Shown here: positions 25,407-54,373 of the stretch, piece after piece
Position numbering within the stretch: position 1 is the first letter of the stretch
Layout: each line of letters opens with the position of its first letter
Assembly (NCBI GenBank): GCA_964036295.1
Contig: OZ038463.1
Location: 10,283,274 to 10,347,273, forward strand
Source: Plumapathes pennacea
Taxonomy: Eukaryota; Cnidaria; Anthozoa; Antipatharia; Myriopathidae
Reading direction: 5' to 3'
DNA: 64,000 bases
The notes under the pieces: generated by a model
The model's input: only the letters and a program-made list of their open reading frames with translations
Told to the model about the DNA's origin: nothing
Databases searched by the model: none
Translations under genes and position numbers: made by a program

Positions 25407-28400
25407 GCGTTATGGTTTGTAGGCTGACGTACAAGCCTCATCTCGCACTTTAAGGATAAAACCTGCCGCACTCCCTTCTCTTCGTCGCTTTCTTGTTCTC
25501 TTGTTCTCACTCTCTCCTCTGCCAAACTCTAACACGATCCCTAGACAGACGTTTTACCAAGAGTGATCAACTTCAATTTTCCCCCTCAGTCTTTCACCAG
25601 AGATATATCATACCGTATGGAGAATTTGCTGCATGACAGTTTTTCTCAGATGAAAGCTGACATGACAATCCATTCTCATCACATCGCTGATATCATGTTT
25701 AATAAAAAGCTATGTATTTACAAGCCCTCCTCTTAATATTTCTTTATTGCTGTAGAACTACACCAAATCTATGGTTCTGTTGATTCTCTTACAAAAATAT
25801 ATCCCAACCATTAGAGAGAAATGTTTTTAGTGATGTAGTGCCACTCGACACTTTAACCCGTTCACTCCCAAGTTCAAAGTACAGATTCTCCCAACTATTC
25901 AAGAAGAAAATGTGTGAGAGATGTGGGGAGAATTAATACTTCAATCAGCTGTCATCTTAGCAAACTATCAAAAGCCAAGTTCTCCATACTGTAATGATAT
26001 ATCTTTGGTGAGAAATCAAAGGAGAAAATTGAAGTTGATCACTCTTGGGAGTGAACTAGGGTTAACAGCTTTGGCTTTCTAAGAAAGCCATAAAATGTCA
26101 AACTCTCCACGCTGTATTAAATATCGAAAGAAAAGATTGTAAAGTCAATCAGTCTCTCAAGAACTAGAGGGTAGCAACTGTTAGGGCCGATTTTTTAAAC
26201 AAAGTCTAAATTAGACCTGGTTTATCGCTAAATTGAAGTTCAGACGGACTCCGTAAATCAGGGTTAACCAAACGTTAAATTGTATTTTTAGAACATGGAT
26301 AGGCGTCAGTTTATGAAGACCACGTTTGGCCGTGGTCTGATAAGCATGGCTATCGCTGAAACATTGTTTAGACCAGGACTTTCTTACCCGCGGTCTAAAT
26401 CTTGTTTAAAAAATCGACCCTTAAAGTTTGATAGTGCTACAGAACAATGGAATGGTTGTGAAAGCGGACGAGTTCCAGACGGGTCTCTGTCCAGGGTCCT
26501 TTGCAAGCCCTACCTTTTCCTCAGATAGATTGGTGTACAGTTGGATTTGGAGTCCCATCTCTGAGCCCAGAGCTATAACCCAGTCTTCCGATTCCACTTC
26601 ATCCAAACTTTTGGATAAGAGCTACAGACAAACAAGAACAATTTAAATTGTGGTAGGTTATATCATCACAAGTTGCCTGTTTATCCGATTTGATATTCAA
26701 AGTCCAGTATTTGTAACTGTTTTTGTTGATGGTTTTCAATTGAATGTGCGATTGTCTTGCTCCTACCTTCGCTGCGCTTTTTATTGGTCCAATCCATAAA
26801 CTTCTGGTCTTTACTTCAGCGTAAAATCATTCTGCTTTTTTTTCTCTGTTTGGTCGACTGCTTTCTTACGACCTCTTAAACTAGCGCTGCATTTAATTTG
26901 GTTGTGCTTTTCAGAGCCGTTTTCGGATGACTGTCGAAAGTAATCGTGTGATTGCTTAGGTTTTGCGTTTGCTACGCCTTCGTATCGGTCCGAAACAAGT
27001 TTAGCAGCATTCTTGGTCAATCAAGAGCAAAGCAAAACTGTATTGCGATATTCTCATGCAAGCAAGCAAGTACCGATGGCGTTTCATCGCAATGCCGATT
27101 GGTTTTGTCTTCAAAGTAAAACCAAACGCGAATTAGTTTGCCTTCTGATTGGTTGAAAGTCTTTATTACAGCCTCTGTGATTGGACGGCTTTACTTACCT
27201 TTAAAACCAAGTCTTCCCAGGCTTTCTGGCTCCATTTCGCGTCACCATCTAAATTTTCTAAATCACGAGGAGTAAAAGAAGAGCAGCAGAATGAAACAGG
27301 GCAACGAACTGTTTTAATATTTACACCAGCCCTGCGAAAGAACTTGGCAAAACAAATTTCCGTTTCAGACTTAAAAGTTTAAAATCCAGTCCAGGATTAG
27401 CAGATCGTGCTTGAACAACCGTGCGCCGAACTGCTTGTGGTACAGCGGAAATACATTTTGACGTCACTTCCGTTGGTCAGCGTTCGTCGCCACTACTTTG
27501 TAACTCGGTCTAACTCGAGGTCATCCTCGGAGACCCAGGGGCAGATCGTGGAGCAGCGGTGAAAAGAACGGCGGGCAAAAAGCGGCGGAGGGGGAGGGGG
27601 AGGGGGGAGAAACGAAGAGGAGGAAAAGAGCCCCTGGGAACACAGTCTGTTCAGACCAGTATTGAAGGCGTGAGACGAGCACGCCGCCGATTGGGCGAAA
27701 AAATTTATCAATTGTATTTTTTCGCCCAATCAGCGATTGTCGTCAAATGCCGCCTGTCAAAACTCCATCAAAAGATTAAGAGATTAAGCGCGTTTACGTT
27801 TCGTTCGGCAAGATGGAAGAAGCTATTAAATTTTCTGTGTGGTTATTTCCAAATGCCAAGGAGTTGAAAGCCGAGCAATTGATCGTGGAGAATGTTGTCA
27901 AGGGAAGAGATGTGTTTGGGGAGCTGCTAACGGGATTTGGCAAGAGTTTGACCTTTCAAGTTTTGCCAGTCGTTTCGAAAGCGATGAATGCTGCGGGCCA
28001 GAACTTCCCCGCTTCTCCGCTGGTCGTTGTTCTGTCTCCGCTGTCGTCGATCATACAAGACCAGGTCGCATACCTTCGATCAATTAATTTCAAAGCTGCG
28101 TTTGTGGGGGAGAACGCAGACGAAGACCGACGTATCCTTGAAGGAAAAGGACGCTTCGACTTCTTGTACGGAAGTCCTGAAACGTTTGTCGGCAACCAAA
28201 AGTACCGTGAAATTATGATCGACGACAGCGGAGACAGAACAACGACCAGCGGAGAAGCGGGAAGTTCTGGCCCGCAGCATTCATCGCTTTCGCAACGACT
28301 GGCAAAACTTGAAAGGTCAAACTCTTGCCAAATCCCGTTAGCAGCTCCCCAAACACATCTCTTCCCTTGACAACATTCTCCACGATCAATTGCTCGGCTT

Positions 28401-31400
28401 TCAACTCCTTGGCATTTGGAAATAACCACACAGAAAATTTAATAGCTTCTTCCATCTTGCCGAACGAAACGTAAACGCGCTTAATCTCTTAATCTTTTGA
28501 TGGAGTTTTGACAGGCGGCATTTGACGACAATCGCTGATTGGGCGAAAAAATACAATTGATAAATTTTTTCGCCCAATCGGCGGCGTGCTCGTCTCACGC
28601 CTTCAATACTGGTCTGAACAGACTGTGTTCCCAGGGGCTCTTTTCCTCCTCTTCGTTTCTCCCCCCTCCCCCTCCCCCTCCGCCGCTTTTTGCCCGCCGT
28701 TCTTTTCACCGCTGCTCCACGATCTGCCCCTGGGTCTCCGAGGATGACTCGAGGTAAACTTTACCTCGTGTGCACATGTTATAGACAACGTACTGAACTA
28801 ACTTATAGTTGAGTATCGAGTCCTAGTATTGAGTTTCTTGGCTACGTTCTGAGGTTTCAGGAGCGTTACACAGAACTTCAAAATCTGCAACTTAATCCAC
28901 AGTATTGTGCATTGACCGCTGACCACACGGCCAAAAAACGTATTTCCGCAACCTCGATGTGAAGCAGCTGAAGTTTGCAGGCTCAGTCCCGAATGATACG
29001 ACTGTTGCATTCATTTTGCGCACCTTCTAAGTACTGCAGCAGTTTAGGAAGGACAGTGTCCCACATTTCCACCAGTTCTGCATTAACTATTGGACAGAGA
29101 GCCTTCATCAACTTCAGAACATGAACTCCACGACCTCTTCCTTTGGATGGATGGCCTGCCATTACCTTGACAAGGGGGGAGGGGAGGGGGGAAGAGGGAT
29201 TAGTAACTGCACTTCAGTGAGTAATCCCGGAAAACAACTACTATATATTGCTCTTTAGAAAAGTTACGACCACTCTCACAAGTTATAAGGGGAAATGTAA
29301 ACAAACAGAAACTACTAAGAATAAAGAGAACCAAGAAGGAAAGAGAGGGGAAAGAGAAACAGACAAAACAAGAAGAGAGAAGAAGAGACAACAGGAGATG
29401 AAAGAAGAAGAGAAAAGAGAAAAAGAAAAGAAAAGAAAGGAGAAAAGAGGCAGGGAAGGTGAGTGGATAGGGCAAGACAAATGAAAGAAAAGGGAAGTGA
29501 ACCAAAGAAGGAGATAAAAGAATAACTTACCAGAAGCCTAGAAATCAGAGTAACTGGCTTGGGAATGTTTCCTAAAGTAACAGAATTGTCAAACGTGAGA
29601 ATTCAAATCCACATGTAATGATGTTGAACAAACAAAAAATCGAGAATTATGAATGTCTGTTGGCAAACATCCCACTATCTCATTCCCTAATCCCCCCCCG
29701 CCTCCCCCCCCCCCCCCCAAAAAAATCAAAACAAAACAAATCAAAACAAAAAACAACACAAACAAACAAAACAAAAAACATAAAACATAAACATAAACAT
29801 AAACACAAACACCGGTGGGGGGGGGGGGGGGGGAAGGGGGCTACCCTTTGAGGTGAACAGAGAAAGTAACTGGTGCAGCTCACTGTTTGTTTCAAAGTCG
29901 ATCATGAAGTCCTCGGCTTCTTCCTCTCGCTTCTTTGAGGCGATATCGCTCAGGCTGCGGCACAGAGGAGCCATGGCGTTCGTGAACGCATCGGGAACGA
30001 CGCACTGCAACAGCGAGGGCCACAGGACCTGGACATTGGGACACAGGAAGGGTGCGTGAGTCTGGGCAATACAACATTTTCGTAAATTTGCATCATCTTG
30101 CGTTTCATGCAGCCGTTTTCGGATGACTGTCGAAAGTAATCACGTGATTTCTTTGGTTTTGTGTTTACTATGCTTTCCTATTGGTCCAAACAACTGCATT
30201 CTTGGTCAATCAGGAGCAAACTCAAAACCTGATTGCGACATCCTGACGCAAACAAGTCGTAAAGTTAGCGTCAAGCATGATTGCCCGTCAAATTGAGAGC
30301 AAAGGGGGGAGGGGGTGGATTGATGGCCAAAGTCTAATCGGTTTCTTCGTGCCATGAGAGGAAATACTGAAATGACTGACCGGTTCCATGACATCCACAG
30401 TAGTCGTGACGAGATGAAGGATGTTTTCGCACATGCTTCGTAAAGCCCGCGGGGTGACGGCATCTGCTTCCGTCGGTCTCCTTGGGTCTCGCTTCTTCAA
30501 AAGCAAATAATCGGTACAGTTATGACAAAAAAGTCTGCTCAAATATCATTTGACCACAACGAGACAATGCAGACAGAAAAACAGCTCATAAGGAAGCCAG
30601 TGAACCTACCTCACCGTCCTCCTCAAGAGCACACTGCCGGACAATGAATTCCACCAGCTTCTGTCCTCCGTCTAGTTCTAAGTAACGGTGGTAAGCCATG
30701 GCCGTGATGGCCTGGGCAAACACGCTGCGAACCTGAGACAACAACAGAGACAGAAAGAGAGAAAAGAGAGATTTCTGGTTGGAATTGCATCTGAACCAGC
30801 ATGGAACCTGCGGCTAATATATTTGTTCAATGCACAATGGAAGGCTATTACTTGGGAAAACTGCTTTTCACTGCGTCGGCGTGGAGAAACAGGTGTGATG
30901 AATCGACTAAGAGTCGAGGTGTGAAAACTGGGAGCCGTTAAAAAGTTTTAACTGACGTTTCGAGCGTTAGCCCTTCATTGGAGCAAGTCTGTTCACGAGT
31001 AAGTCTGTTTCTTACTGATGAGTTTATATACACAAAACTAAGAGCTGTTTGACAGATGGATGCAGGCGGCAGTACGAGATGAAGGGGTGTGAATATCACC
31101 GACTGGCCACACAACGTCTATTTGCACTATAGCTCAGATTGCGTTAGCCTACGAAAACAGACGGATTTTCCGCCTGTTGCTTTGCGTGGTATTTTTCGGC
31201 CTCGCAAAGCAACAGGCGGAAAATCCGTCTGTTTTCGTAGGCTAAGATTGCGTGTACTGTGCTTACACTGTGTCTGAACCAGCAGTGAAGACAAATGCAC
31301 ATATAGGTAGTCTGAGTAGAGGACACTAATCAGCTACACCCTTGGACAAGACAAGACGAGACAAGAGAAAAACCTGATGGTCTCCCCCTCTCACTCCTTT

Positions 31401-34400
31401 CAATGTTTAACTTTGAATGACATATTTGTTGGGAGAGAGGCGGGGTTGACGGGCCTCAAATATGTCGCCAAGATTGCTGACCAACCATTGTGTATGTATA
31501 AGAACACTGGAAAAGCTAGCGAGTAAAACCCGACTTTTTCTCCGATCGACAACTCAAAGCTGTTCGAACTCGGACAGAAGTGAAATTCCGTCATAAACCA
31601 TCCACTCCTTCTCATCGTGTTATACCTGTCTGAAAGTATAAGTCTGACAAGTTACATATGAAAAGACGCATAAAGTGTTTACCTTCAGATTTTGCTCAGA
31701 CAGGAGAATTTGAACTCCATTAACGATAAGTCCCTCTTTGTTTTCCAAGTGAGAACCTACGAGGAAAAAACAAAACACTCGTGCGAATCAGGATAGAAAC
31801 TACGTTGAAATAACGAATAATTTTATCGTGTCAAGCACCTATACTCTAAATAATGAAACCGAGTACGCATAGATAGTCAAAGGGGGGGAATAATAATCTT
31901 TGTTTATCAAGCAGAAACTCCACGATCACTGCGATTCTGGCGATTTGCGATAGAGTACCAATCAACTGAAAACGTGGCATAGTAATCGAAGTTTTCTTAA
32001 AATAAATTACGTTTCGCCACTTTTTACGGGCGACTTTTGAACTTTACACTAAAAGTGAAAGACTTGACCGTTCAGCACGTGCTTTGGACCACACCCATTT
32101 CAACCCCGTGTGAAGAATCGGCACGTGCTTTGGACCACACCCATTTCAACCCCGTGTGAAGAATCGGCATGTGATTTGGACCACACCCACTTCAGCCTCG
32201 TGTGAAAATCTGTTCGAGAATTCTATTGGTTAGAATACCTGAGGAGTTGATGAGATGTTTGAGGACTGCCAGTGAACCAAGGCGCGTGCGTTCATTATTA
32301 GCCTCCATCTTCATCAGCAGGAATCCTATTACCCGGTCGGAAAACGACGGCGCTGAAGGAGGGAATAGATACTCAGGTTGTATTGTAGTTTTATTTAAAT
32401 ACATGTTCAGTTATGGGCCCTACATTTGTTCCTTCGAAACTTCAACAATCTGAGAAGTCAAGCCTTCCATCGTTTTCTCTCTTTAATTCTTTTACTCCCA
32501 AGAGTAATCAACTTCAATTTTCTCTTGCAGTTTCTCAACAGAAATATATGATACCGTAAGGAGAACTTGGCTTTTGGTACGTGTTCAGATGATAGCTGAT
32601 TAAATTATTAGTTCTCACCACATCACTCATACATTTCCTTCTTAAAAGGTTAAAAGAATCTGTACTTTGAGCTTGGCAGTAAAAGGGTTAATCTCAGACT
32701 AAAGAACGAGGACAACTATCAGCTCAGCTTGACTTTTGAGTCTGGAGATCTACAAATTGCCAACACGACGTGCCGAATGCAGATTTACGGATCTCGACAG
32801 GCATTGTACATGATGAATTCATTACGTCCACGAGATTCTGGTAGAATCAACTTACCTATGACGGAAAAGCACCTCAGGACTTCATTATGATTTTTAAACG
32901 AGGCTGGGTTGGAGAAATCGGGCATATTACACACCTGAAGCAAACGACAAAAACATACAATTACTCGGTGCAGCCAAACTTCATACTTTTACAATTATTC
33001 AGGGTTTTTTTTACGGCAAGCTCTTCGAATACGTTAAAGATGGCTCGACAAAACTGTATGTTGTTTTCGCAAACTGGTTCAAGTTCGAGCTACAATTTTC
33101 ACGGCAAAAATTTCCGCGTGCGACCTTCCTGTACGGTACTCAAAAAATGCACAACGGCCTTTGAGGCCACGTTGCCAGACAAGTTGCAGAAGAAATCGCG
33201 CTTGTGACACCACCTCTTTGCAACTTGAAACGCAACGGAAACTGCGAAACAAGTTGCAGGAAAAGTTGAACAGTCTTGTACTTTTTACAACAGCATAACT
33301 TAAATCGACTGAGGGTCAATGTGTGAAAGCTGGACGCCGTGAAAGAATCCAGCTTTCACACATCGACCCTCAGTCGATTCAAGTTATACGTATTTCTCCA
33401 CGCCGACGCAGTCAATCTAGTTCTCTTTAGAGCTGGTTTTCCGAAGTAGGATTTAACCTCGTAACTTACCATGCCATGAAGTCCGTTCAATAAAGTGTCC
33501 AAATGCTGTGACAATAAGCCCCCTCCCCCTGCACAAGCTGCATCCAGTACCATGCAAAGGCTCTGATAATAGATAAACAATAATTGTGTTTACAAACAAA
33601 CAAGCAAACAAAATGCTAGGAACAATCCAAATCATATAGGTCAACAAAACAAGCAAAGCGCCATGATTTATATGGATTTTGCATTTGATCAAGGTCTGCA
33701 GGGGTGAGGCCGTTTTGCGGCAAATACAAAAATTCAAAATTCATTCCACCTAACTATGCATGTCGACTCTGTACACCTATTTTCAGGTTAAATTAATGAA
33801 TATTTGTAGAGAAATACTTGGTGTCAGATAACAAAAACAGACAAACTTCAATCTACCACCTTGCAACAATGATTTTGTAGCAAATACTCATGGGTTGGAC
33901 CTGAAAATCACCGTGCAGAGTTGACATGCATAGATCTTTGCTATGAACTATGGATATTGCATTTGATCAAAGTCTGCAGGGTTAAGGGTCTCATACCCAC
34001 GTTTTCCATGGCAACAGAACTATTTTGCAATAAATAAATAATTTATAATCATTTATTGTACAGAACTATGCATGCTGATTTTGTGCTATGAACTATGGAT
34101 TTTCCATCTGTCTGCAGAGTTAAGAGTCATACATTAGGGATCTTACCTGAGTTATCTGGTAGTGTTCTGTGTGTCGCTTGTACAGAGCTGTTATTCCTGC
34201 TAATATTTTAGACAACTGGTCCCCCAGCTTATCAGGAGACATGATGTGAGCCATGTGACCCACAGCACTCACAACTGTCAAGCGGATCTGGAAATTTGGA
34301 TCACATATCACTATAATATTATAAGCACATGCAAGGGTGCACACTCACCAAATCCTGCTCCACATAAAACTAATTACTGCAAAATTTAATTATTAACAAA

Positions 34401-38627: not shown

Positions 38628-38809
38628 GTTTGTATTTTGAGTTATTAGATATCTACGTGGTAGTAATGGCGGAAAAAAAGAAGGATTTGCTGACCAAAAA
38701 GCTCGAACAACCCAACCGAGCCGACCATACTTCCTGTCTGTGCTCTAACGAGAAACCGCAGGCCAAATATACCGTGGTTTCACAAAAATATTTGGCGCGC
38801 TTTTAGAAA
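38628..38809. promoter_or_regulatory. Shared bidirectional promoter region of MROH1 and the F-box gene
   Basis: The two start codons point away from each other with only 182 bp between them, so both core promoters must lie within or overlap this interval. It contains GTAATGGCGGAAAA (an ATGGCGG box) near 38665 and no TATA box at a clear position. A short upstream reading frame (ATG near 38669, MAEKKKDLL) runs into the interval before the F-box start. Confidence 0.55.
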
Positions 38810-42342: not shown

Positions 42343-42414
42343 TCCTCGGTAGTATAGTGGTGAGTATCCCCGCCTGTCACGCGGGAGACCGGGGTTCGAT
42401 TCCCCGCCGGGGAG
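42343..42414 (+). tRNA. tRNA-Asp (GTC)
   Basis: A 72-base cloverleaf: acceptor stem TCCTCGG pairs with CCGGGGA before discriminator G; D-arm with the A box TAGTATAGTGGTGAG; anticodon arm CCGCCTGTCACGCGG with anticodon GTC; T-arm CGGGGTTCGATTCCCCG holding the B box. It differs from the vertebrate tRNA-Asp at very few positions. No intron. CCA is not encoded, as usual for eukaryotic tRNA genes. A T-run follows within ten bases as RNA polymerase III terminator. Confidence 0.97.
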
Positions 42415-42420
42415 AGAGGA

Positions 42421-42429
42421 TCTTTTTTC
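42421..42429 (+). terminator. RNA polymerase III terminator of tRNA-Asp
   Basis: TCTTTTTTC, six T on the coding strand, starting nine bases after the tRNA 3' end; a second T-run follows at about 42432. Confidence 0.85.
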
Positions 42430-42756
42430 TTTTCTTCATTTACTACATTTTCACTACCCTGCTGCTCCTCTGTTATCCCTATGCTAACCCAAATCGTAGG
42501 ACGGTGAAATACTGGAAACAAACTGCCTTTTGTCACTCAGTGCATAAATACAACAATATTTTCTGTTTATGTTCTATTAAACGGACCGATAGACTGGAAT
42601 GATGAGCGAGATACTGGCAGGTATTTGTGAAAAACAGCAATATAAAAAAAGCGGGTCACTCCACTGAACAAAAGCTATTTTACAGGTCTGAAAGGAAACA
42701 CGTCCCAGACTTCCGCTCTGCACGGGCCCGCTCAGCACGGCGTCCAAACGAGGCAT

Positions 42757-42772
42757 AAGAAAGATGGCGGCT
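42757..42772 (+). promoter_or_regulatory. YY1-like box at the C1GALT1 start codon
   Basis: AAAGATGGCGGCTGCG contains the AAGATGGCGGC consensus known from YY1-bound metazoan promoters, where the ATG is often the translation start, as here (42764). This is motif recognition only. Confidence 0.4.
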
Positions 42773-43789
42773 GCGAAGGTCACGTTTTTTGCTTTTGCGA
42801 TCGGCCTTTCCTTTGGTGGATTTATGGCTTACTTAGTCATGAGTTACGTAAGTCCAGACGGTGCTTTGAATCAGTTCATTAAGAGAACAAGTGGACCTAG
42901 AAGGGACGTTACCACAACAATTGTTCACAGACACGGCCAGTTTAACATCACGGCACCAGTAGATTTCAGCGGAGACGAAAATGACCCCCACCACCTCATG
43001 AACGATAAACGGGCGAAAGAAGAAGCGAAGCGAATCAGAATACTGTGCTGGGTTATGACCAGTCCGAAGACACTTCACGAGAAAGGCAAGCCGATCATGG
43101 AAACGTGGGCAAAGCGTTGCAACACTTTTCTCTTCATGAGCTCTAAGGTAGATCCCGATTTTTCTCCAGACGTTGTTGGTTTGGATGTTGGAGAAGGACG
43201 GGACAAGCTGTGGCACAAAACGCGTGCTGCTTGGCAGTATGTGTTTGACAACCACCTCAACGATGCTGATTGGTTCATCAAAGTGGATGATGACACATAT
43301 CTGATAGTGGAAAACCTTCGTCATTTTGTATCTAAGTTCAATTCGGATGAGGCACACTACTTTGGCCGACACTTCAAGACGTTTGGTGGCTACTGCAGTG
43401 GTGGTGCAGGCTACGTCTTCAGTCGCAAGACACTTCGTGCCTTTGCAGAATTGTTGAAAGATACAAGTCTTTGTCCAAAGGACAGCTGGGCTGAAGACAT
43501 GGAAGTTGGCAAATGCTTGGCTAAAAAAGGGATTCATCCTGGGGACTCTCGCGACTCTCTTGGAAGGAAAACCTTTCATCCATTTCCTCCTGAACATCAC
43601 CTCATTCCAGGTTTTGTACCAAAGGACTTCTGGATTTATAGCTATGATAAGCATCCTTACAAAGAAGGCCCTGAATGCTGCTCAGACCATTCAATAACAT
43701 TTCACTATATCAGCCCTAAGATGATGTATCAATTGGAATATTTTGTTTATCACCTTCGCCCATTTGGTATAGAACACTCTGATGTTTAA
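42764..43789 (+). CDS. C1GALT1: Core 1 beta-1,3-galactosyltransferase (T-synthase-like), intronless
   Basis: A 341-residue type II Golgi membrane protein: short cytosolic tail, membrane anchor at about residues 7-28, stem, then a GT31 catalytic domain. Marked features are ILCWVMTSPKTLHEKGKP (93-110), TWAKRCN, LFMSSK, the metal-binding DDD at 175-177 inside DWFIKVDDDTYLIVENLRHF, GGYCSGGAGYVFSRK, EDMEVGKCL, GDSRD, FHPFPPEHHLIPG and the C-terminal CCSDHSITFHYISP and YHLRPFG. These follow human C1GALT1 along the whole domain. The enzyme adds galactose to GalNAc-Ser/Thr to make the core 1 O-glycan. One N-glycosylation site (NIT) lies at 61. The whole frame is one exon, while vertebrate genes are split. 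C1GALT1 fits better than the chaperone COSMC because the DDD motif is intact. Confidence 0.94.
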   Translation: MAAAKVTFFAFAIGLSFGGFMAYLVMSYVSPDGALNQFIKRTSGPRRDVTTTIVHRHGQFNITAPVDFSGDENDPHHLMNDKRAKEEAKRIRILCWVMTSPKTLHEKGKPIMETWAKRCNTFLFMSSKVDPDFSPDVVGLDVGEGRDKLWHKTRAAWQYVFDNHLNDADWFIKVDDDTYLIVENLRHFVSKFNSDEAHYFGRHFKTFGGYCSGGAGYVFSRKTLRAFAELLKDTSLCPKDSWAEDMEVGKCLAKKGIHPGDSRDSLGRKTFHPFPPEHHLIPGFVPKDFWIYSYDKHPYKEGPECCSDHSITFHYISPKMMYQLEYFVYHLRPFGIEHSDV

Positions 43790-44964
43790 ATGTTCTACTT
43801 ATGATCTTGAACTGTGCCGTAAGTACCATTTTATTATACTGTATTTTGTTTTAGACTACTGTAAACTATCTTCAGGATTCATTCCTGAGGTTTTCTACGT
43901 AGGCCACAAAGCAACATCGGTGGGTTGTGAAGTGGATAGGCAAAGAAAACCTTTGGAATCAGTGGTACTGAATGTCACATCCATGCAGCTGACAGCTGTC
44001 AAATATGTCACTTGACTAATATACCTGTTTAATCAAAATTATTGTGGAGGTGTTTTTCACATTCCAACCAATCAAGAGTGAGAGTCAGGTTCTGACCCAA
44101 CTGAAATCCAGTTGTGCAGCATGATTAGTCAATAACATTGACCACCAATAATTGACCACTGGTTCCAAAGGTTTTCTTTACCTCACTGGTACCGATTGCA
44201 GCTACAGTACAGTATGCTAGAAAACCTCTCCAAGCAAGGATCATTTTCTTGCACACCTGTCAAGAAGATTTGCCATCTCCTATCAGATTTGAAAACTAGA
44301 TTGAGCAAAGTATTGCGATTTGCCAGTGGCACACAGATCAATATTATTTGGCAGAGGCAAATAACTGATCTACAAGACACTGACAAATCATGATATTTTT
44401 TGCAATAAATGAGTTCAATAATATTGTTTTATCATACTTGCATTTCACAAAGTATTTGGCATAAAATGTTTTGGGAAGGGTGCATTGCAGCAAAAATAAG
44501 CCTGCCATTTTCACACAGGTGGAGAAAACTGTGCATGAGTAGAATAGTATTTGCAGTTGACATACTGAAAACAGTGGTGTGCATGAGCCAACACTTATTT
44601 GTAGGCAGTTATTTTGAGGTGACATAGCAGTCTCTGGGCCAATCAAAACAGGAAAAAGAGCATTGAATGATCATACAGTTTCTCACACAATATCTAACCA
44701 GCACAGTTTAAATGAGAAAGTAACAGCTACTGTAGTTGACACATCTTACAATAATAATTTCAATGTCATAAGTTAATATATAATATTGTAGTTAAATATC
44801 AACAACAAAATAAAATATTAGTGGTATTTCAGATAATGTTCTGACCACAGATAAGCTGCACCCTCAATATTTGCCAAGAATTTAAGTAAACTACAGTTTT
44901 TTGTTTTTGTTTGTTGTTTGGTACTTTTAAGTTAAAATAACAAAAGCAAGTTCATGTGTCACTA

Positions 44965-45320
44965 TTCCCAGGGGAGGGGACTCCCATATAGAAAAGGACG
45001 GGGATGCTCGTCGTACCTCTTAGGGGTCAAAATCATGGGTTTTGTTGCCGCTTGGAGTGCTCAACATCAAACGCTGACATTTTTATGTGACATGGTACTG
45101 TTTAGGGGTCAGATGTCAGTCGAATGAGACATTTCTTTAAAAACAGCAAGGGATTAAGTGTTTCATGATATCATAAAAAGGCATCAGAACTTTAAATTGT
45201 TGGTTTGCTCTTATTGGTACCTTTTAGGGGTCAAAATAAGCTCGAGCCACGCCCATTTTAGTACCTCTTAGGGGTGAAAACGAAATTTTTTGACGAGCAT
45301 CCCCATCATGTTTATGTTTG
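44965..45320. repeat. Inverted-repeat element with GGGGATGCTCGTCG arms
   Basis: ACGGGGATGCTCGTCG near 44998 pairs with GACGAGCATCCCCAT near 45292; TACCTCTTAGGGGTCAAAAT occurs three times with small changes (45016, 45221 region, 45258). No coding potential. Confidence 0.65.
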
Positions 45321-46694
45321 GGTCAATATTATGGTACCATCATGTTTAGTCATGTACAACTGGGAATACTCATTAGTCAAACAGAGAGGCAGGGATAAAA
45401 GCATCTGAGTATCTCATTTAAAATGTGTTCATGTTAATCCATCAAGCTGATACAAACATGAATTATAAACCAAAACATGATAAGCTCAATGTTGCTATTT
45501 TAGGTCAGGAAAATTTGCTTTTAAACAAATGGGAGCAAAATGGGTGTAAATTATTAGGTGGAAAGGTAGTTAGTTGAAACAAAACAATGCATTAAATCTG
45601 CCAGCAATAAATACAAAGAATATGAGATACATGCGTTTTTGTGAGACATGTTGTTTTAACAGTATTTCAGAAGAGAACACTTTATTTGTAATAATAACCT
45701 GTAGGTTTTGAAAATGTGATCGTTCCAGCCTTATATAGCCACAGATATATAGCACAGTAAGGAGATTGTGGCATTTGATATCTTGCAAATTGTGTTGTGT
45801 TTATCATTTTATCAGAGATCTGTTAATCCAAATTTGATATTATTATTTGTGGAAAAAACCAACTTCACAACTTGCTTTTTATGTTGTACCAAAATGAAGT
45901 TACAAATCGGTTCTTAAATCAGGGATAAATACTAGTTATTGGTTGATATGTTACCTACAGGTGTTTACTATTGGTAAAAAGAGTTACACCTGTTCGCAGA
46001 TTGCTTTTCAGCGTCTACCAGTTTCTCCATTCAATGATGAGAAATTGGGCTGATTTTTTTTTTTTTTTTTAATTACAGTGGAACGCCGAAACTCCTCGAC
46101 TACTCCACAATTTAAAAATTCCGCTTATGTGAATCCAGTGCAACGTCGAGGCCAGCTAATGACTACAATATATCATGTTGTATCAGTAGTTACAGATATT
46201 GGGTTTTAGATACTTGGCATTCTGAGTGAAACGAAGTGTGTAACCCCCAATGAAGCCGACATTTTGATCCCAGTTAGAATTTAGATTTTATTGGAACACA
46301 CTCTGTTACGCCCAGAAGTGTACTGACCCCGGTACAGACTAACCTATTTCGCAACGATGGATCAACTCCGTAAGACTACACTATGACTACATAAAAATAC
46401 ACTTTATCAAAAAAATTACCCTGAACATATCCATAATTCCTACACCAGAAATATACATTCAAATGTTACTTAATAACCTTTAACAGTATGAAGTGTGATG
46501 CTTCATGAAAATACACCTTCGACGAAAAGTAAGAGTAAAAAAAACTTGTAATGGTTGTACTTTGTTACTTATAACTTTAACTGATATAGCCCTTCTTTTA
46601 TAAACAATTACTTCGCAGGCAATTCCGCAGGACCTAATCTATAATATAGTTTTGAGTAATGTTGGTCTCCTTGAAAATAAGTTTCTAAAGACCA

Positions 46695-46935
46695 GGGCCC
46701 GGTTTTTCGAAAGTCGCTTAAACTAATCCAGGATTAACGAAATTCTTTCTCTCGACCTCTCTGCCAATAAACTGGAGGGTTTTGTTCAAAGATGGATTAA
46801 AAAGCTCGTTCCAGCTTAAATCGTTACCAAGAAAGCCGTTGTGGACGAAACTTTCACGTTTTCAGGCTTACATAAGGCCAGAAAGTTTATACCTAATCCA
46901 GGATTAGCCTAATCGTGCTTTGAAAAACCGGGCCC
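46695..46935. repeat. Inverted-repeat element with GGGCCCGGTTTTTCGAAAG ends
   Basis: GGGCCCGGTTTTTCGAAAG at the left and CTTTGAAAAACCGGGCCC at the right; inner TAATCCAGGATTA motifs also pair. Best copy of a family whose degraded members occur at 12700-13040 and near 4795-4970, and which resembles those at 26183 and 36058. About 241 bp. Confidence 0.85.
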
Positions 46936-47257
46936 ACTATAAGACAGTGAATATTAACCCAAAATTAGCAGGGCGTAGCTTCCCTTACGCATAAACGCAC
47001 GTGCGTACTTCCGTATTCGTCCTTCTTTTTACCTTGACTCACTATCCATTATAAATATTGAATACCTTCTATTAAAACTAGCTCATGTAACGATTTTCAT
47101 CCTCGCCTGCCTTTAAAATACCCGCGAGTTTTACTTGTGAGATCCATGTTTTGCCTGTGCGGTGATCTACGTAATTTTGATCAGAAACACACACACACAA
47201 AGAAAAGCAAGCCTTCATATTACCGCTCTTAACGTCACTACTGGACATTTAACTGCA

Positions 47258-50200
47258 TCATGGCTTTGGAAAAGGAATCACATCTTCACCCAGGAGGACA
47301 AAAGGAGCCCAGTAGCGTGGATGCTCGAACCCCTTGTGTTCTCTCACGTCTTGCATGGCATTATTGAGTGCCACGTTTGCACTTTCGCCATCTTTAAGGT
47401 ACTCGTAGAAACGAAACATAAAGCACAAAGTGGCCTTATCGTCAACCGCCCACAATGTTGCAAGAACCGCTCTAGCTCCAGCTCCAAGAAACGCACGAGC
47501 TATACCGACTACACCCTCTCCTTTCATGACGTCACCACAGCCGCTGTGACAGCAACTAAGAACAACCAACTTTGCGTTTATGCGTTTACGTTCGAGATCG
47601 GAAACGAGAAGCATGAGATTTGTAGCCTGGAGAATTCCAGTCATTCCAGGAGGACGGGCAAGCAAGATCTCTCCCCTATCTTTATTTCCGTGTGCTGCAA
47701 CATGAATCAAACTGGCACTTTCGACTCTATGTAGAAACCTCCTTTTCGTCGCCTTGTTTCCCACAAGGGGCTGAACGCGGAGAATTTGACCGATTAATTC
47801 CACTTCTTTTGCTGCGCATGGTAGTCCTGGCGCAGTAGTAACTTTACCTTTGTACTTAACTGTGCCCACTTCTGGCTCTCCCACTATTAAGGGTTTAGAC
47901 CGGCCTGGTGATTTTTCTGGGCTTTCTTTGATTATCTTTGCTGTTGTTAGTGATGGAATTAGTCTCACTCGTAAGGATTCTGCCACAAAGAGCCCGTTCT
48001 CATCCATGAGGGCGGCAAATGGAACCAGAGCGAGTCGTCCATCAGGGACGACAATTACCTGCGACCCCACCACATATTGCCGAACAGGCTCCAGAAGAAT
48101 CCGATAAAGATCGTGTAGTAAACCGTTCATTTCTAAATCATCCGCTGTTTTAGAGGACTCAGCCTTGCCTAGAGGTCCGGATATTGTTGTCATGGCTACG
48201 TCCTGTTTTTGCGTAGATGCGGGTTGTGGAGCCCTGAGCTGAGATGATACTAGTTGTTGAACAGTCCAACAGACAGGCATAGCGGCACGAGCTGGCATCG
48301 ATTCTGGTTTCTTCTTAATGGGTTTTGACAACTCTTTTGAATAAAGAAACGACAGTGAGCGATCTTCACATCTGTCATTCTTGCTTGGTTGCATCAACTT
48401 TATAGCCTTGTTAACAAGAAAGTCTACATCTTCAGTACAAGTTTTGTGATGCAGCAAGACTTCTCCATTCGGCTGTATCACCCAAGTACAAATATCATGG
48501 TTAAGTAAGGCAAAAAAGAGGACTGTACTATCCAGGGCTTTGACCACTGCACAGATTTCATTGAGGTTTCTTACTCTGGATTCGTATTTAACAGGGCAAG
48601 TGGACAGAAGGTCAACTAAAGCTCGTGAACGTCCGTTTTCAGCAAAAACAAGGGCTTCGGCGCTTCTTTTCTCTTGATGCAGAAGAGTTTTAATCAGATT
48701 TTTATACGTGTCCACAAATTTCTCGATGAAAGAAACTTTACTTTTATCCCAGTTTGGTACAGTCTCAAGCAGTTTATGGTAACACTTTATACTTTTTCTT
48801 AAATTGCTCTCAACATCTCCATACTGGCCGCGAGCGGTATATATAACACCAAAGTTCCTGTAAGCTGCTCCTTCTCCGTTTTTGTCTCCAATCTCCTTTG
48901 CAATAGTAAAGCACATTTTCTGATACTCAATAGCCTTGTCGTACTGGCCGAGAAAGTGAAAGCAGCTACTAAGATTGCCGTAAGCTGTTCCTTCTCCGCT
49001 TTTGTCTCCAATCTCTTTTGCCATAGCAAGGCCTATTTTCTGATACTCAATAGCCTTGTCGAACTGGCCGAGATACTGATAGCAACAACCAAGATTGCCG
49101 TAAGCTGTTCCTTCTCCCCTTTTGTCTCCAATCTCTTTTGCGATAGTAAGGCACATTTTCTGATACTCAATAGCCTTTTCGTACTGGCCGAGAGATTTAT
49201 AGCAACAACCAAGATTGCCGTAAGCTGATCCTTCTCCGCGTTTGTATCCAATCTCTTTTGTGATAGTAAGGCACATTTTCTGATACTCAATAGCCTTTTC
49301 GTACTGGCCGAGAGATTCATAGCAACAACCAAGATTGCCGTAAGCTGTTCCTTCTCCGCTTTTGTCTCCAATCTCTTTTGCGATAGTAAGGGACATTTTC
49401 TTATACTCAATAGCCTTGTTGTACTGGCCGAGAGATTGATAGCAACTACCAAGATTGCCGTCTGTGGTTCCTTCTCCGCATTTGTCTCCAATCTCTTTTG
49501 CGATAGAAAGGCACATTTTCTGATACTCAATAGCCTTGTCGTACTGGCCGAGAGATTGATAGCAACTACCAAGATTGCCGTCTGTGGTTCCTTCTCCGCA
49601 TTTGTCTCCAATCTCTTTTGCGATAGAAAGGCACATTTTCTGATACTGAATAGCCTTGTCGTACTGGCCGAGAGATCGATAGCAACTACCAACATTGCCG
49701 TAAGCTGTTCCTTCTCCGCGTTTGTCTCCAATCTCTTTTGCGATAGTAAGACAAATGTTGTGATACTCAATAGCCTTGTCGTACTGACCGAGAGAGCCAT
49801 AGCAGCTACCAAGATTGTTGTAAGATATACTTTCTCCCCTTTTGTCCCCAATCTCTTTTGCGATAGAAAGGCACATTTTCTGATACTGAATAGCCTTGTC
49901 GTACTGGCCGAGAGATTGATAGCAGCCACCAAGATTGCCGTAAGCTGTTCCTTCTCCGTCTTTGTCTCCAGTCCCTTCTTCGATAGTAAGACAAATGTTG
50001 TGATACTGAATAGCCTTGTCGTACTGGCCGAGAGAGTGATAGCAGCCACCAAGATTGCCGTAAGCCTTTCCTTCTCCCCTTTTGTCTCCGATTTTTTTTG
50101 CGATAGTAAGGGACATTTTCTGATACTCGATAGCCTTGCCGTACTGGCCGAGAGAGTGATAGCAATTACCAAGATTGCCGTAAGCCGTTCTTTCTCCCCT

Positions 50201-52528
50201 TTTGGCTCCAATCTCTTTTGCGATAGTAAGGGACATTTTCTGATAATCAATAGCCTTATCGTACTGACCGAGAGATTCATAGCAACAACCAAGATTGCCG
50301 TAAGCTGATCCTTCTCCGCGTTTGTTTCCAATCTCTTTTGCGATAGTAAGGCGCATTTCCTGATACTCAATAGCCTTGTCGTACTGGCCGAGAGAGTCAT
50401 AGCAGCTACCAAGATTCCCGTAAGCTACTCCTTTTCCCCTCTCGTCTCCAATCTTTTTTGCGCTAGTAAGGAACATTTTCTGATACTCAATAGCCTTGTC
50501 GTACTGGCTGAGAGATTTATAGCAACTACCAAGATTGCCGTAAGCTGTTCCTTCTCCCCTTTTGTCTCCAATCTCTTTTGCGATAGTAAGGGACATTTTC
50601 TGATAATCAATAGCCTTGTCGTACTGACCGAGAGAGTGATAGCAACAACCAATATTGCCGTAAGCGGTTCCTTCTTCGCGTTTGTCTCCAATCTCTTTTG
50701 CGATAGTAAGAAAAATTTTGTGATACTCAATAGCCTTGTCGTACTGGCCGAGAGAGTCATAGCAGCTACCAAGATTGCCGTAAGCTGTTCCTTCTCCGTC
50801 TTTGTATCCAATCTCTTTTGCGATAGTAAGGAATAATTTCTGATACTCAATAGCTTTGTCGTACTGGCCGAGTAAGTAATAGCAAACACCAAGATTGCCG
50901 TAAGCTGTTCCTTCTTCCCTTTTGTCTCCAATCTCTTTTGCGATAGTAAGGAACATTTTCTGATAATCAATAGCCTTGTCGTACTGGCCGAGAAATTTAT
51001 AGCAACAACCAAGATTGCCGTAAGCTGTTGCTTCTCCGCGTTTGTCTCCAATCTCTTTTGTGATAGTAAGGCACATTTTGTGATACTCAATAGCCTTGTC
51101 GTACTGGCCGACAGAGTCATAGCAGCTACCAAGATTCCCGTAAGCTGCTCCTTTTCCCCTCTCGTCTCCAATCTTTTTTGTGCTAGTAAGGCACATTTTC
51201 TGATACTCAATAGCCTTGTCGTACTGGCTGAGAGATTTATAGCAACTACCAAGATTGCCGTAAGCTGTTCCTTCTCCCCTTTTGTTTCCAATCTCTTTTG
51301 CGATAGTAAGGGACATTTTCTGATAATCAATAGCTTTGTCGTACTGACCGAGAGAGTGATAGCAACAACCAAGATTGCCGTAAGCGGTTCCTTCTTCGCG
51401 TTTGTCTCTAATATCTTTTGCGATAGCAAGACGTAATTTCAGATATTCAATAGCCTTGTCGTACTGGCCGAGAGAGTGATAGCAGCTACCAAGATTGCCG
51501 TAAGCTGTTCCTTCTCCGTCTTTGTATCCAATCTCTTTTGCGATAGTAAGGCATAATTTCTGATACTCAATAGCCTTGTCGTACTGGCCGAGTAAGTAAT
51601 AGCAAACACCAAGATTGGCGTAAGCTGTTCCTTCTTTCCTTTCGTCTCCAATCTCTTTTGCACTAGTAAGGCACATTTTCTGATACTCAATAGCCTTGTC
51701 GTACTGGCCGAGAGAGTGATAGCAATTACCAAGATTGCCATAAGCGGTTCCTTCTCCGTCTTTGTCTCTAATCTCTTTTGCGATAGAAAGGCGCATTTTC
51801 TGATACTGAATAGCCTTTTCGTACTGGCCGAGAGAGTGATAGCAGCTACCAAGATTGCCGTAAGCTGCTCCTTCTCCGTCTTTGTATCCAATCTCTTTTG
51901 CGATAGTAAGGCATAATTTCTGATACTCAATAGCCTTGTCGTACTGGCCGAGTAGGTAATGGCAAACACCAAGATTACCGTAAGCTGTTCCTTCTTCCCT
52001 TTCGTCTCCAATCTTTTTTGCACTAGTAAGGCACATTTTCTGATACTCAATAGCCTTGTCGTACTGGCCGAGAGAGTGATAGCAATTACCAAGATTGCCA
52101 TAAGCGGTTCCTTCTCCGTCTTTGTCTCTAATCTCTTTTGCGATAGAAAGGCGCATTTTGTGATACTCAATAGCCTTTTCGTACTGGCCGAGAGAGTGAT
52201 AGCAACTACCAAGATTACCGTAAGTTGTTCCTTGTCCGTCCTTGTCACCAATCTCTTTTAGGATTGCAAGCAATACTTCAAAATGTTGCGCAGCTTTTTC
52301 ATATTTTCTAGTAGAGTAGTAGTGAAGACCAAATTTAGTATGAACCTGTTGTTCAAGTTCCTTGTTCTTAGTTTGCTCTGCGAAATTTAAGGCGACGGTG
52401 AGAATAGACAGTTCATCCATTGATTGCTTCCAGCTGGTGTTTTCTCCTGTATAAGCAAAGAACGATGATGTAAGGACGGATCCGTTTTTCTCGTGTTTTG
52501 TTTCTGTAATTTTGCTACGCAAGATCAC
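47258..52528 (-). CDS. TPR-CHAT protein: about 29 TPR units plus CHAT caspase-like protease domain
   Basis: One uninterrupted frame of 1756 residues, similar to proteins annotated as TTC28-like in cnidarians. A first TPR (FGLHYYSTRKYEKAAQHFEV) leads into 28 near-identical 40-residue TPR units of the form GTAYGNLGxCYxSLGQYDKAIEYxKMxLxIAKEIGDKxGE and one degraded unit. A helical linker with AENGRSRALVDLLS follows, then the CHAT domain: VIVVPDGRLALVPFAALMD, GEPEVGTVKYKGK, LIHVAAHG (His at residue 1613), VVLSCCHSGCG (Cys at residue 1660), ARAFLGAGARAVLATLWAVDD, WAPFVLLGE. His and Cys match the catalytic dyad of CHAT, a relative of caspases and separase; TPR-CHAT proteases are known in bacteria. 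The TPRs probably bind partner proteins or regulate the protease. The start is uncertain: an acceptor-like TTTGCTTATACAG precedes residue 29, so an upstream exon may replace the first residues; a second ATG is at 52420 (MDELSILTV). No stop or frameshift breaks the array. Confidence 0.92.
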   Translation of the reverse strand: MILRSKITETKHEKNGSVLTSSFFAYTGENTSWKQSMDELSILTVALNFAEQTKNKELEQQVHTKFGLHYYSTRKYEKAAQHFEVLLAILKEIGDKDGQGTTYGNLGSCYHSLGQYEKAIEYHKMRLSIAKEIRDKDGEGTAYGNLGNCYHSLGQYDKAIEYQKMCLTSAKKIGDEREEGTAYGNLGVCHYLLGQYDKAIEYQKLCLTIAKEIGYKDGEGAAYGNLGSCYHSLGQYEKAIQYQKMRLSIAKEIRDKDGEGTAYGNLGNCYHSLGQYDKAIEYQKMCLTSAKEIGDERKEGTAYANLGVCYYLLGQYDKAIEYQKLCLTIAKEIGYKDGEGTAYGNLGSCYHSLGQYDKAIEYLKLRLAIAKDIRDKREEGTAYGNLGCCYHSLGQYDKAIDYQKMSLTIAKEIGNKRGEGTAYGNLGSCYKSLSQYDKAIEYQKMCLTSTKKIGDERGKGAAYGNLGSCYDSVGQYDKAIEYHKMCLTITKEIGDKRGEATAYGNLGCCYKFLGQYDKAIDYQKMFLTIAKEIGDKREEGTAYGNLGVCYYLLGQYDKAIEYQKLFLTIAKEIGYKDGEGTAYGNLGSCYDSLGQYDKAIEYHKIFLTIAKEIGDKREEGTAYGNIGCCYHSLGQYDKAIDYQKMSLTIAKEIGDKRGEGTAYGNLGSCYKSLSQYDKAIEYQKMFLTSAKKIGDERGKGVAYGNLGSCYDSLGQYDKAIEYQEMRLTIAKEIGNKRGEGSAYGNLGCCYESLGQYDKAIDYQKMSLTIAKEIGAKRGERTAYGNLGNCYHSLGQYGKAIEYQKMSLTIAKKIGDKRGEGKAYGNLGGCYHSLGQYDKAIQYHNICLTIEEGTGDKDGEGTAYGNLGGCYQSLGQYDKAIQYQKMCLSIAKEIGDKRGESISYNNLGSCYGSLGQYDKAIEYHNICLTIAKEIGDKRGEGTAYGNVGSCYRSLGQYDKAIQYQKMCLSIAKEIGDKCGEGTTDGNLGSCYQSLGQYDKAIEYQKMCLSIAKEIGDKCGEGTTDGNLGSCYQSLGQYNKAIEYKKMSLTIAKEIGDKSGEGTAYGNLGCCYESLGQYEKAIEYQKMCLTITKEIGYKRGEGSAYGNLGCCYKSLGQYEKAIEYQKMCLTIAKEIGDKRGEGTAYGNLGCCYQYLGQFDKAIEYQKIGLAMAKEIGDKSGEGTAYGNLSSCFHFLGQYDKAIEYQKMCFTIAKEIGDKNGEGAAYRNFGVIYTARGQYGDVESNLRKSIKCYHKLLETVPNWDKSKVSFIEKFVDTYKNLIKTLLHQEKRSAEALVFAENGRSRALVDLLSTCPVKYESRVRNLNEICAVVKALDSTVLFFALLNHDICTWVIQPNGEVLLHHKTCTEDVDFLVNKAIKLMQPSKNDRCEDRSLSFLYSKELSKPIKKKPESMPARAAMPVCWTVQQLVSSQLRAPQPASTQKQDVAMTTISGPLGKAESSKTADDLEMNGLLHDLYRILLEPVRQYVVGSQVIVVPDGRLALVPFAALMDENGLFVAESLRVRLIPSLTTAKIIKESPEKSPGRSKPLIVGEPEVGTVKYKGKVTTAPGLPCAAKEVELIGQILRVQPLVGNKATKRRFLHRVESASLIHVAAHGNKDRGEILLARPPGMTGILQATNLMLLVSDLERKRINAKLVVLSCCHSGCGDVMKGEGVVGIARAFLGAGARAVLATLWAVDDKATLCFMFRFYEYLKDGESANVALNNAMQDVREHKGFEHPRYWAPFVLLGEDVIPFPKP
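48860..52240 (-). repeat. 120-bp tandem repeat array encoding the TPR units
   Basis: About 28 units of 120 bp, each starting with a version of TACCAAGATTGCCGTAAGC on the plus strand. Because 120 is a multiple of three, long open frames appear on both strands and are shadows. Units 1-3 resemble units 4-6, and units 6-11 resemble units 12-17, so blocks of 360 and 720 bp seem to have been duplicated within the array. Confidence 0.92.
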
Positions 52529-52983
52529 GCGTTGAAAACTTCACATGAAAATTCAGAGTGCTGCTTAATCTTTTAACAGGCAGAATGAGGTTGTTCGTCA
52601 GTTATTGACAGTCGCAAACATAAACTGAAATGACAGGAAGTTTAGTCTCGGGCCCTGAAGTTACATTTCCGGCGTTTGCTTCAAATGTCATATACTCCTC
52701 GATATTTATCATAATAATGACACTTGTGTGACACACCATACATTTTTTCTTATTTTAAAAGCGGGTGCGCACTATTTAAGGAAACCCCCGTTCCCCCCCA
52801 GGCCCCCGATGGACAAATTTGTTGATATTAAACACAGAATGGCAAGCAAGACCTTTCGCTTACGAACAGAACTGTTAACTAAATAAATGGCTTTACACAG
52901 GCAAAATTAATATTTAGGTTTACAATTCGCCGATTGTGGGTTTTCACGTTGTGTTCGTTAGCAATACTACAGAACAACAGATA
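52529..52983. other. Upstream region of the TPR-CHAT gene
   Basis: About 455 bp of AT-rich unique sequence between the TPR-CHAT frame and the palindromic element; it should hold the 5' UTR and promoter, and possibly a small upstream exon. No box could be assigned with confidence. Confidence 0.4.
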
Positions 52984-53030
52984 CAGCGTGGTATGAGGTG
53001 CCGTTACCGCCAATATTCAGCCCTGTTTGA

Positions 53031-53168
53031 TTTTGTAAAATGGTGCCCTAAGTTTATAAAATGGTGGGTAACATTTACTAAATGCTCAGAATATTTCATA
53101 AAATGATGTTACCAGTTTCGAAAATGATGACAATGATTTAGAAAATGGAGCGTCCGTTTCATAAAATG
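53031..53168 (+). repeat. Seven AAAATG-type boxes at exact 21-bp spacing, left arm
   Basis: AAAATG starts at 53037, 53058, 53100, 53121, 53142 and 53163, with a TAAATG variant at 53079; every step is 21 bp. Each box is preceded by TTT six bases upstream, giving TTTNNNAAAATG plus nine variable bases. Confidence 0.92.
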
Positions 53169-53433
53169 GAGCCCCGTTTATTCAGCAGTCTGGTGACAAC
53201 CTGCGGCTTATGCGGCCGAGCAAACCTGGGACCCAGACCGTCAATCCAACATGGCAGACGATTGTCATCTCAATGATCTTCGAAAGCTTGTGATAGAAAA
53301 AAATGGAAGAAATCTGCTCCAGTCTTTTACACCCTTCTGAGATCCTAGATGTTGACGATGCACTGGAGATGATTGACCAAATTATAGAAGCTGTAAATTG
53401 TTTGGATTGTTCGGTGAGATTGCCAGAAGAAAT

Positions 53434-54108
53434 TTATTGAGACATCTCTGCTGCTAAAAGAATCATCGAAAACTCCAGCACAACTTCTACGAGAATCCCA
53501 CGAATCCAGACCGGTATGGCAGATACACCAAGAGGGTCGACTCTTTGTAAGGACTGTCTCAATCGTTGCCTCGGTACTTTGATGTCACGAGCGGCAAGAT
53601 ATCCAACGAGATTCTTTGATCCACAGTTAGGATTGAAAGTTTTTATCTCGAGAACTTGAATGTCTAATTCCTCATCCATGATGTTGCTGTATGGCCTTGC
53701 TGAAATGTTGTATTGTGCGAGACGTCGTTCAATAGTCCTGGTTGACAAGCAAAGCAACTCTGAAATTTGTGGAACTTTAAACCCCAGATCTATTAATGCT
53801 TGTAGCTGTTCTTGAGAAATGTCACAGGAAGGGCGTCCTGCCATACCGGTCTGGATTTGTGGGGTTCTTGAAGAAAATGTGCTGGAGTTTTCGATTATTC
53901 TCTTGGCAGCAGAGATGCCTTGATAAATTTCTTCTGGCAATCTCACCGAACAATCCAAACAATTTACAGCTTCTATGATTTGGTCGATCATCTCCAGTGC
54001 ATCGTCGACATCTAGGATCTCAGAAGGGTGTAAAAGACTGGAGCAGACTTCTTCAATTTTTTCTATCGCTAGCTTTCGAAGATCATCGAGATGACCATCG
54101 TCCGCCAT
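53434..54108 (-). pseudogene. 5' half of an HTH/integrase-type element gene, running into the inverted arm
   Basis: ATG at 54108 (MADDGHLDDLRKLAIEKIEE). Residues 1-90 lie in the right arm and 91-195 in the unique centre; residues 196-224 are antisense of the left arm and not genuine. The centre encodes a helix-turn-helix segment (GRPSCDISQEQLQALIDLGF, VPQISELLCLSTRTIERRLA, about 91-131) and then NPNCGSKNLVGYLAARDIKV and PRQRLRQSLQRVDPLG. This order is what I know from animal mobile-element proteins that continue into an rve-type integrase core; that core and its DDE residues are absent here. The left arm holds a second copy of the N-terminus on the plus strand (ATG near 53251) broken by a one-base insertion near 53302 and a TGA near 53438. 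Confidence 0.75.
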
Positions 54109-54190
54109 GTTGGATTGACGGTCTGGGTCCCAGGTTTGCTCGCCCGCATAAGCCGCAGGTTGTCACCAGACTGCTGAATAAACGGGGCTC

Positions 54191-54322
54191 CATTTTATGA
54201 AACGGATGCTCCATTTTCTAAATCATTGTCATCATTTTCAAAACTGGTAACATCATTTTATGAAATATTCTGAGCATTTAGTAAATGTTACCCACCATTT
54301 TATAAACTGAGGGCACCATTTT
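54191..54322 (-). repeat. Seven CATTTT-type boxes at exact 21-bp spacing, right arm
   Basis: Complement of the left-arm array: CATTT starts at 54191, 54212, 54233, 54254, 54275, 54296 and 54317, each 21 bp apart. The spacing is intact although the two arms have diverged elsewhere. Confidence 0.92.
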
Positions 54323-54373
54323 ACAAAATCAAACAGGGCTGAATATTGGCGGTAACGGCACCTCACAGCGTGG

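Follow-up and report, generated by a model that had tools for sequence, protein, structure and literature searches.

Near-palindromic DNA transposons that appear to carry one parental end twice recur in the genome of the antipatharian Plumapathes pennacea

Two near-palindromic, non-autonomous DNA transposons, here named U1 and U2, lie within a 64,000-nucleotide stretch of the genome of Plumapathes pennacea (GenBank assembly GCA_964036295.1, contig OZ038463.1, positions 10,283,274 to 10,347,273 of the forward strand; hereafter the window). Both appear to follow a plan that can be called 'one end twice' (5'-5'), in which one end of a two-gene transposon is present at both sides of the unit, together with the beginning of the gene that starts there. 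This plan has arisen at least four times independently, in two superfamilies within this one genome, namely in U1, in U2 and at two further loci, L062 and L064; the four cases are considered independent because their protein families, termini and breakpoints differ. The self-complementarity of U1 and U2 is also beyond what chance would produce, since related copies are found at 40 and 27 places, respectively.

U1 occupies positions 27522-28746 of the window. Its left arm (27522-28055, plus strand), which was aligned with the parental element described below, starts with the terminus CATCCTCGG, runs through the terminal inverted repeat (TIR) and 5' region to an ATG at 27813 and continues into about 81 codons of a RecQ-like helicase; this frame begins MEEAIKFS... 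and its Pfam match is DEAD. The loop (28056-28213, plus strand, 158 nt) holds the next ~52 helicase codons and extends to a break after GTGAAATT in exon 1 of the helicase gene, which is common to subtypes A and B of the family and at which the overlap with the inverted copy is no more than 1 nt. The right arm (28214-28746, minus strand) is the helicase end in inverted orientation, standing where the parent has the end that encodes a DUF6589 protein. The arms measure about 534 nt, with 100% complementarity across the outer 490 nt, and the 9-bp target-site duplication (TSD) ACTCGAGGT flanks the unit on the left (27513-27521) and on the right (28747-28755), neither having a strand.

Matches to U1 are present at 40 or more distinct places in the genome searched, which comprises 290 Mb in 24 contigs; the best 40 of 186 candidates were scored, and the figure is therefore a lower bound. 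Twenty-five of these matches span at least 1 kb, and two of the 40 are helicase ends of parental elements. The duplication was tested in 24 of the 28 places then known, the sample leaving out L045 and L052, in which one end is missing, the parents L050 and L051, and 12 places found in addition to those 28. A 9-bp duplication adjoining the termini CATCC...GGATG is exact in 22 of the 24 copies, has one mismatch in another and is absent from the last, L042, while none of 552 control cross-pairings matched over 9 bp with up to one mismatch. The flanks of L042 (C3:1446915-1448090) are inverted copies of each other over 45 bp. Arm conversion extending into the flank was rejected as the cause, as the I arm of this copy retains I-type states.

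The parent of U1 was reached via two single-ended matches. This element (L050, C5:13895144-13902614) is 7471 bp long, is flanked on both sides by exactly CAGCAAATT and carries two convergent genes, one for a RecQ-like helicase that starts from one end and one for a DUF6589 protein that starts from the other. The helicase has Pfam matches to DEAD and Helicase_C, with RecQ_Zn_bind slightly under the cut-off. The TIR comprises 233 bp at 98.3% identity plus an interrupted extension: on the helicase side the repeat covers about 263 nt, with the ATG at nt 267, and on the DUF6589 side an extra ~36 bp intervenes before the repeat resumes to end at nt 298, with the ATG at nt 371. A second parent, at C3:7602904-7625305, holds other inserted sequence, and its flanks agree at eight of nine bases. 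When the DUF6589 end was used as a query, matches beyond the TIR were obtained only at these two parents (best 40 of 168 candidates). Judged by sequence comparison, U1 is a helicase end followed by an inverted helicase end, the DUF6589 half having been lost. An ATTGG...CCAAT inverted repeat is also found in the U1 TIR, 5' of the start codon (window ~27690-27735), and in the C5 parent such a pair stands upstream of both genes.

The association of the two genes is general among the DUF6589 loci of this genome, 23 of 32 having a RecQ match within 15 kb, against a chance expectation of about 0.35, and in 23 of these 23 pairs the orientation is convergent. The predicted fold of a DUF6589 protein (L071:2065-3930, from an intact element described below) resembles those of the Hermes, RAG1 and ISCth4 transposases, and this model suggests that the Pfam family DUF6589, to which no function has been assigned, is likely to be a transposase paired with a RecQ-like helicase. 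A DUF6589 profile gave no match up to an E value of 1 against the sequences of solved structures, and when the DUF6589 exons from L071 and the C5 parent were scanned with Pfam, DUF6589 was detected but no MULE domain. The name DUF6589 was not found in the openly licensed literature searched.

U2 occupies positions 52992-54367 of the window, with arms of about 530 nt that are ~95% identical and a loop of 315 nt. Its right arm (53838-54367, minus strand) consists of the TIR and the start of a frame beginning MADDGHLDD..., with its ATG at 54108 on the minus strand; this frame runs on into the loop (53523-53837, minus strand), which holds its next ~105 codons, the helix-turn-helix (HTH) part of an integrase-like protein. 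The left arm (52992-53522, plus strand), an inverted and degenerate copy, has the terminus TATGAGG, the TIR, the start codon and about 90 codons. The frame covers no more of the protein than its N-terminal part, and its sole Pfam match, HTH_23, falls below the cut-off. The 6-bp TSD, GCGTGG, is found at 52986-52991 on the left and at 54368-54373 on the right (no strand). U2 matches occur at 27 places (27 of 27 candidates scored), eight of them spanning at least 1 kb, namely seven palindromes, six of which are 97-100% identical to the window copy and one 86%, and the locus L018. The 6-bp duplication is exact in five of eight copies, has one mismatch in one and is missing from L012 and L018; L015, L016 and L017, with one end unrecognised, were left out of this test. 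The termini are TATGAGG...CCTCATA in seven of the eight copies with both ends. The window copy, in contrast, has CCTCACA at its right end, and its duplication appears longer than it is because of this departure from the CCTCATA of the other seven.

A full-length U2 parent was not found in this genome, in which the closest of the distant relatives of the U2 protein share about 31-39% identity. The TIR of the U2 type measures ~258-271 nt and reaches the first codons. At L018 (C5:14732216-14734003), where a TIR is present at both ends and the duplication is unclear, each TIR is followed by a different frame with a MADD start, integrase-like from one end and beginning MADDLANAARILS... from the other; the piece of the second gene gave no Pfam match. 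From this arrangement, the parent type of U2 probably also had two genes beginning at the inner edges of its TIRs. Along C4:22.0-26.3 Mb (L063), the second-gene end of a U2-type element is present as ten segmental copies, each with a single TIR match.

A preliminary description of the window, made from the sequence itself, had placed two inverted units in it, and the arms and coordinates of U1 and U2 confirm both. It had also proposed that one parental end is copied in inverted orientation in place of the other, as was then found for U1 by comparison with its parent, whose DUF6589 end is replaced by the helicase end, and that the centre keeps the next 50-105 codons, in agreement with the ~52 and ~105 codons of the two loops. 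The flanking repeats, described as 7-8 bp long, are actually of 9 bp in U1 and 6 bp in U2. The arms do consist of an upstream region plus a coding start, as had been claimed, but the long TIR is no novelty, since the TIRs of the parent types already measure ~263 nt (U1) and ~258-271 nt (U2); only the coding part is new. Its further suggestion, that such elements titrate transposase and yield hairpin RNA against the parent, is conjectural.

Recurrence was sought by convergent-match searches, by which only families related to the query sequences are detectable. Most searches scored the best candidates only, so that the counts are lower bounds; three of the convergent-match searches covered the best 150 of 243, 264 and 254 candidates, the last one by eye. 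The 117 RecQ matches typed correspond to one search list, from which U1 copies were removed, and 12 rows of another. With U1 copies excluded and the two halves of a palindrome counted separately, the RecQ N-terminal loci number 105, and three convergent pairs were found among them. L062 (C12:8588783-8591418) is a palindrome present as a single copy (eight of eight candidates scored), with arms of 1.02 kb at 97% identity and flanks, AACAAACCT and AATAAACCT, that match at eight of nine bases. L064 (C5:12611200-12616500, element at 150-5228) is a palindrome with arms of 0.83 kb at 99-100% identity and an exact 9-bp duplication, CATGTCCTG; an insertion of about 2.2 kb splits its left arm, and its centre retains the remainder of the helicase gene. 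An intact relative of the latter, L071, 73% identical to it in the helicase-end DNA, has both genes, TIRs of only 75 bp and an exact AGAAGGCTG duplication. The third pair, L065 (C2:26974300-26979700), turned out not to be a palindrome. The earlier suggestion of a recurrent plan, and not two accidents, is upheld by L062 and L064 and by L071, which is without long repeats, but the demonstrable events number four and not dozens, and each multicopy family looks like one amplified founder rather than the outcome of many events.

L067 (C12:11153280-11153946) was dropped as a fifth 5'-5' event because its ~250-nt arms lie within the TIR, given that the DUF6589 end has the same GGCCATAAATAGATTA segment behind its extra ~36 bp, and L069 ([1-513]+[242-1]) is ambiguous as a 5'-5' derivative for the same reason. 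L067 itself, 667 bp long, is related to U1 through the TIR only; ~160 nt of it is unrelated filler, and its 9-bp duplication, CCTAAGAAT, is exact. Nor is the class universal. For the L061 family, whose four copies were chosen regardless of palindromes, no coding palindrome was present in the best 40 of 74 candidates. In that set, L061 helicase-end DNA beyond query position 175 (ATG at 188) was found at four places only, in one orientation each, and the second TIR lies about 7.6 kb away at three of them and about 2.3 kb away at one (C6); the list also includes short relatives and small facing pairs limited to the terminal region, none of them coding. Similarly, with another IS3EU-like integrase as the query, no further convergent pair was found among 78 of 78 candidates scored and inspected by eye.

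The arms of U1 have a history of their own. The group consensuses are distinguished by 25 substitution columns, with ten indel columns disregarded. Thirteen of these 25 have one state in both arms of subtype A (nine copies) and the other state in both arms of subtype B (11 copies), and in eight the change is confined to one arm of B. Of the ten diagnostic sites, L036 is ancestral in both arms at nine; L008 and L006 have mixed states, and the remaining six A copies, like all three C copies, are derived throughout in both arms. The arm tree agrees with these site-by-site states, though many of its forks are weak, and the arms of subtype A are less than 1% apart in seven of nine copies. As A and B have one founder junction, the arms must have served as templates for each other during the spread of the family. 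Separate origins of the two subtypes are unlikely, the helicase-side break being identical to the base, and their sequences are more simply read with B as A minus 27-28 nt at the base of the stem and C as A without the loop. The U2 family behaves differently: its I arms group in a single clade, and the divergence between the two arms is 3.8-5.4% in five of six copies and 1.9% in L012.

On balance, and with moderate confidence, we regard U1 and U2 as 'one end twice' derivatives of two-gene DNA transposons, formed by repair that was templated by the element's own opposite end. In the intact U1 parent the convergent genes begin at or near the inner edge of the long TIRs, the helicase gene immediately and that for DUF6589 ~70 nt further, so that each TIR is at the same time the 5' region of a gene. 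Repair synthesis after a break or a transposition gap in such an element would have taken the helicase (or integrase) end as its template from both directions, with the near-identical TIR allowing priming on the wrong side; the ends thus extended would then be joined with little or no homology. Because the product would retain two genuine termini, it would still be mobile by the parental machinery and generate the parental TSD, which explains the continued transposition and the duplications, and the U1 and U2 derivatives were amplified. The structure, U1 parent, termini, duplications, recurrence, amplification and later U1 arm homogenisation are observed; we infer that the units were born by gap repair and mobilised by DUF6589 or an IS3EU-type transposase. 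Related causes have been offered for other elements. Defective Galileo copies have been proposed to result from repair that was aborted or switched (PMC4168063), deletion derivatives in Medicago from abortive gap repair (PMC2213677), and Pack-TIRs of animals from the filling of gaps or from fork switching (PMC8277862). What speaks against the simple gap-repair form is that no DUF6589-end palindrome was seen in the searches; either helicase-end doubles move better, or the end that is doubled is chosen by another factor.

Replication-fork switching, the main rival to templated repair, is possible but clearly less probable. The polymerase might have stalled inside the element, changed strands close to the TIR or to some small inverted repeat and copied back to the terminus (snap-back), after which the new element transposed. 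The U1 junction, where homology does not exceed 1 nt, would fit such an event, the ATTGG...CCAAT inverted repeat in its 5' region could stall a fork, and fork stalling and template switching followed by transposition (FoSTeST) has been proposed for multicopy animal Pack-TIRs (PMC8277862). Fork switching alone, however, accounts neither for a copied strand that stops precisely at the terminus nor for the target-site duplication to its left and right, unless transposition was immediate.

A composite origin seems unlikely. Two nearby head-to-head copies would in that case have had their outer helicase or integrase ends used as those of one large transposon, and their inner ends would have been deleted. 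The divergence between U2 arms in most copies, with same-side arms closer to each other, looks as if the founder's arms had come from two copies. In contrast, the near-identity of the arms of L064, and of those of U1 subtype A in seven of nine copies, argues against it, inspection of L064 revealed no second inner TIR between the centre and the inverted arm, and a nearby inverted insertion plus a deletion would be required four times.

Slightly more doubtful still is the proposal that the doubled-gene form was retained as a silencer of the Mu killer type, with a hairpin RNA directed against the parent, which would account for the doubled gene start: Mu killer, whose two TIRs derive from the mudrA side and which carries part of mudrA in inverted orientation, does silence MuDR (PMC3440606), and the U1 parent was recognised at two or more places against at least 25 long derivatives, but it is the helicase gene and not the transposase-like one that is doubled in U1, L062 and L064, both arms read inward so that a hairpin would need read-through across the unit, and any 5'-5' derivative whose arms exceed the TIR in length necessarily holds a gene start, which is therefore no sign of selection. 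It is likewise improbable that two-gene transposons with promoter-bearing TIRs might repeatedly yield, by end-swapped repair, mobile and self-amplifying 'one end twice' derivatives that act as suppressors of the Mu killer type and drive the parent toward extinction.

The architecture is already known from Mu killer, and it is the mobile, multicopy and recurrent form in an animal that appears to be new, as far as the openly licensed literature searched extends. MuDR has two convergent genes and promoter-bearing TIRs. The U1 parent shares convergent genes and the 9-bp TSD with MuDR/MULE elements, but no MULE-type transposase domain was detected in its DUF6589 exons. In Mu killer of maize, the two TIRs alike come from the mudrA side, and incomplete mudrA copies, two in number, are arranged as an inverted duplication (PMC3440606). 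Same-end TIRs with an inverted partial gene are similarly found in U1, L062 and L064, on the helicase side, and in U2, on the integrase side. Mu killer, however, is a locus that silences an active element, whereas U1 and U2 are dispersed multicopy animal elements with their own duplications and belong to other superfamilies, and the helicase gene is the one doubled in three of the four present cases, unlike the mudrA of Mu killer.

Among other described superfamilies, AcademH has a helicase gene and TSDs of 9-10 bp (PMC10045372). The superfamily II helicase and the 9-bp TSD of the U1-parent type (exact in the C5 parent and L071, eight of nine bases in the C3 parent) match this, and the partner gene of the U1 parent is DUF6589; on these sequence features, our best guess is that the U1 parent is an AcademH element. 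RecQ helicases are also carried by KolobokH transposons of fungi and by Kolobok-1_CCri of a red alga, in which the helicase lies on the complementary strand (PMC9587614). IS3EU elements have TA..TA termini and usually a 6-bp TSD (PMC10045372), both of which U2 shares with IS3EU/GingerRoot, though U2 retains no more than an N-terminal portion of the protein. The foldback-like Galileo is characterized, as are the present elements, by TIRs of great length and by a varied structure (PMC4168063), and a variant with two identical long TIRs has been reported for Bari1 of D. rhopaloa (PMC4877112). The present arms differ from both in that they consist of a doubled gene start plus an ordinary TIR, and a state lacking the doubled start is seen in the U1 parent and in the intact relative of L064.

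Elsewhere in the window, an open frame of 1760 amino acids on the minus strand (47258-52540) contains 28 registered copies of a 120-nt unit. We take its repeats to be TPR-like and its C-terminal part to be CHAT-like in appearance. A tRNA-Asp gene is located at 42343-42414, and an intronless frame at 42692-43789 resembles glycoprotein-N-acetylgalactosamine 3-beta-galactosyltransferase, with 88% identity to its best match; its closest named homologues are from Orbicella and Nematostella, with those of Porites and Acropora lower, followed by other animals. Direct repeat pairs are present at 58691-58826 and 60044-60179 (99% over 136 nt) and at 19152-19270 and 25875-25993 (82% over 119 nt).

The birth of non-autonomous elements and of miniature inverted-repeat transposable elements (MITEs) from their parents is still mostly inferred. 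In P. pennacea, a parent, its derivative, their shared junction and termini, and the stepwise homogenisation of the arms are legible within one genome. The structural model also singles out DUF6589 as a likely transposase partnered with a RecQ-like helicase, and what was a single famous locus, Mu killer, becomes a testable class in an animal.

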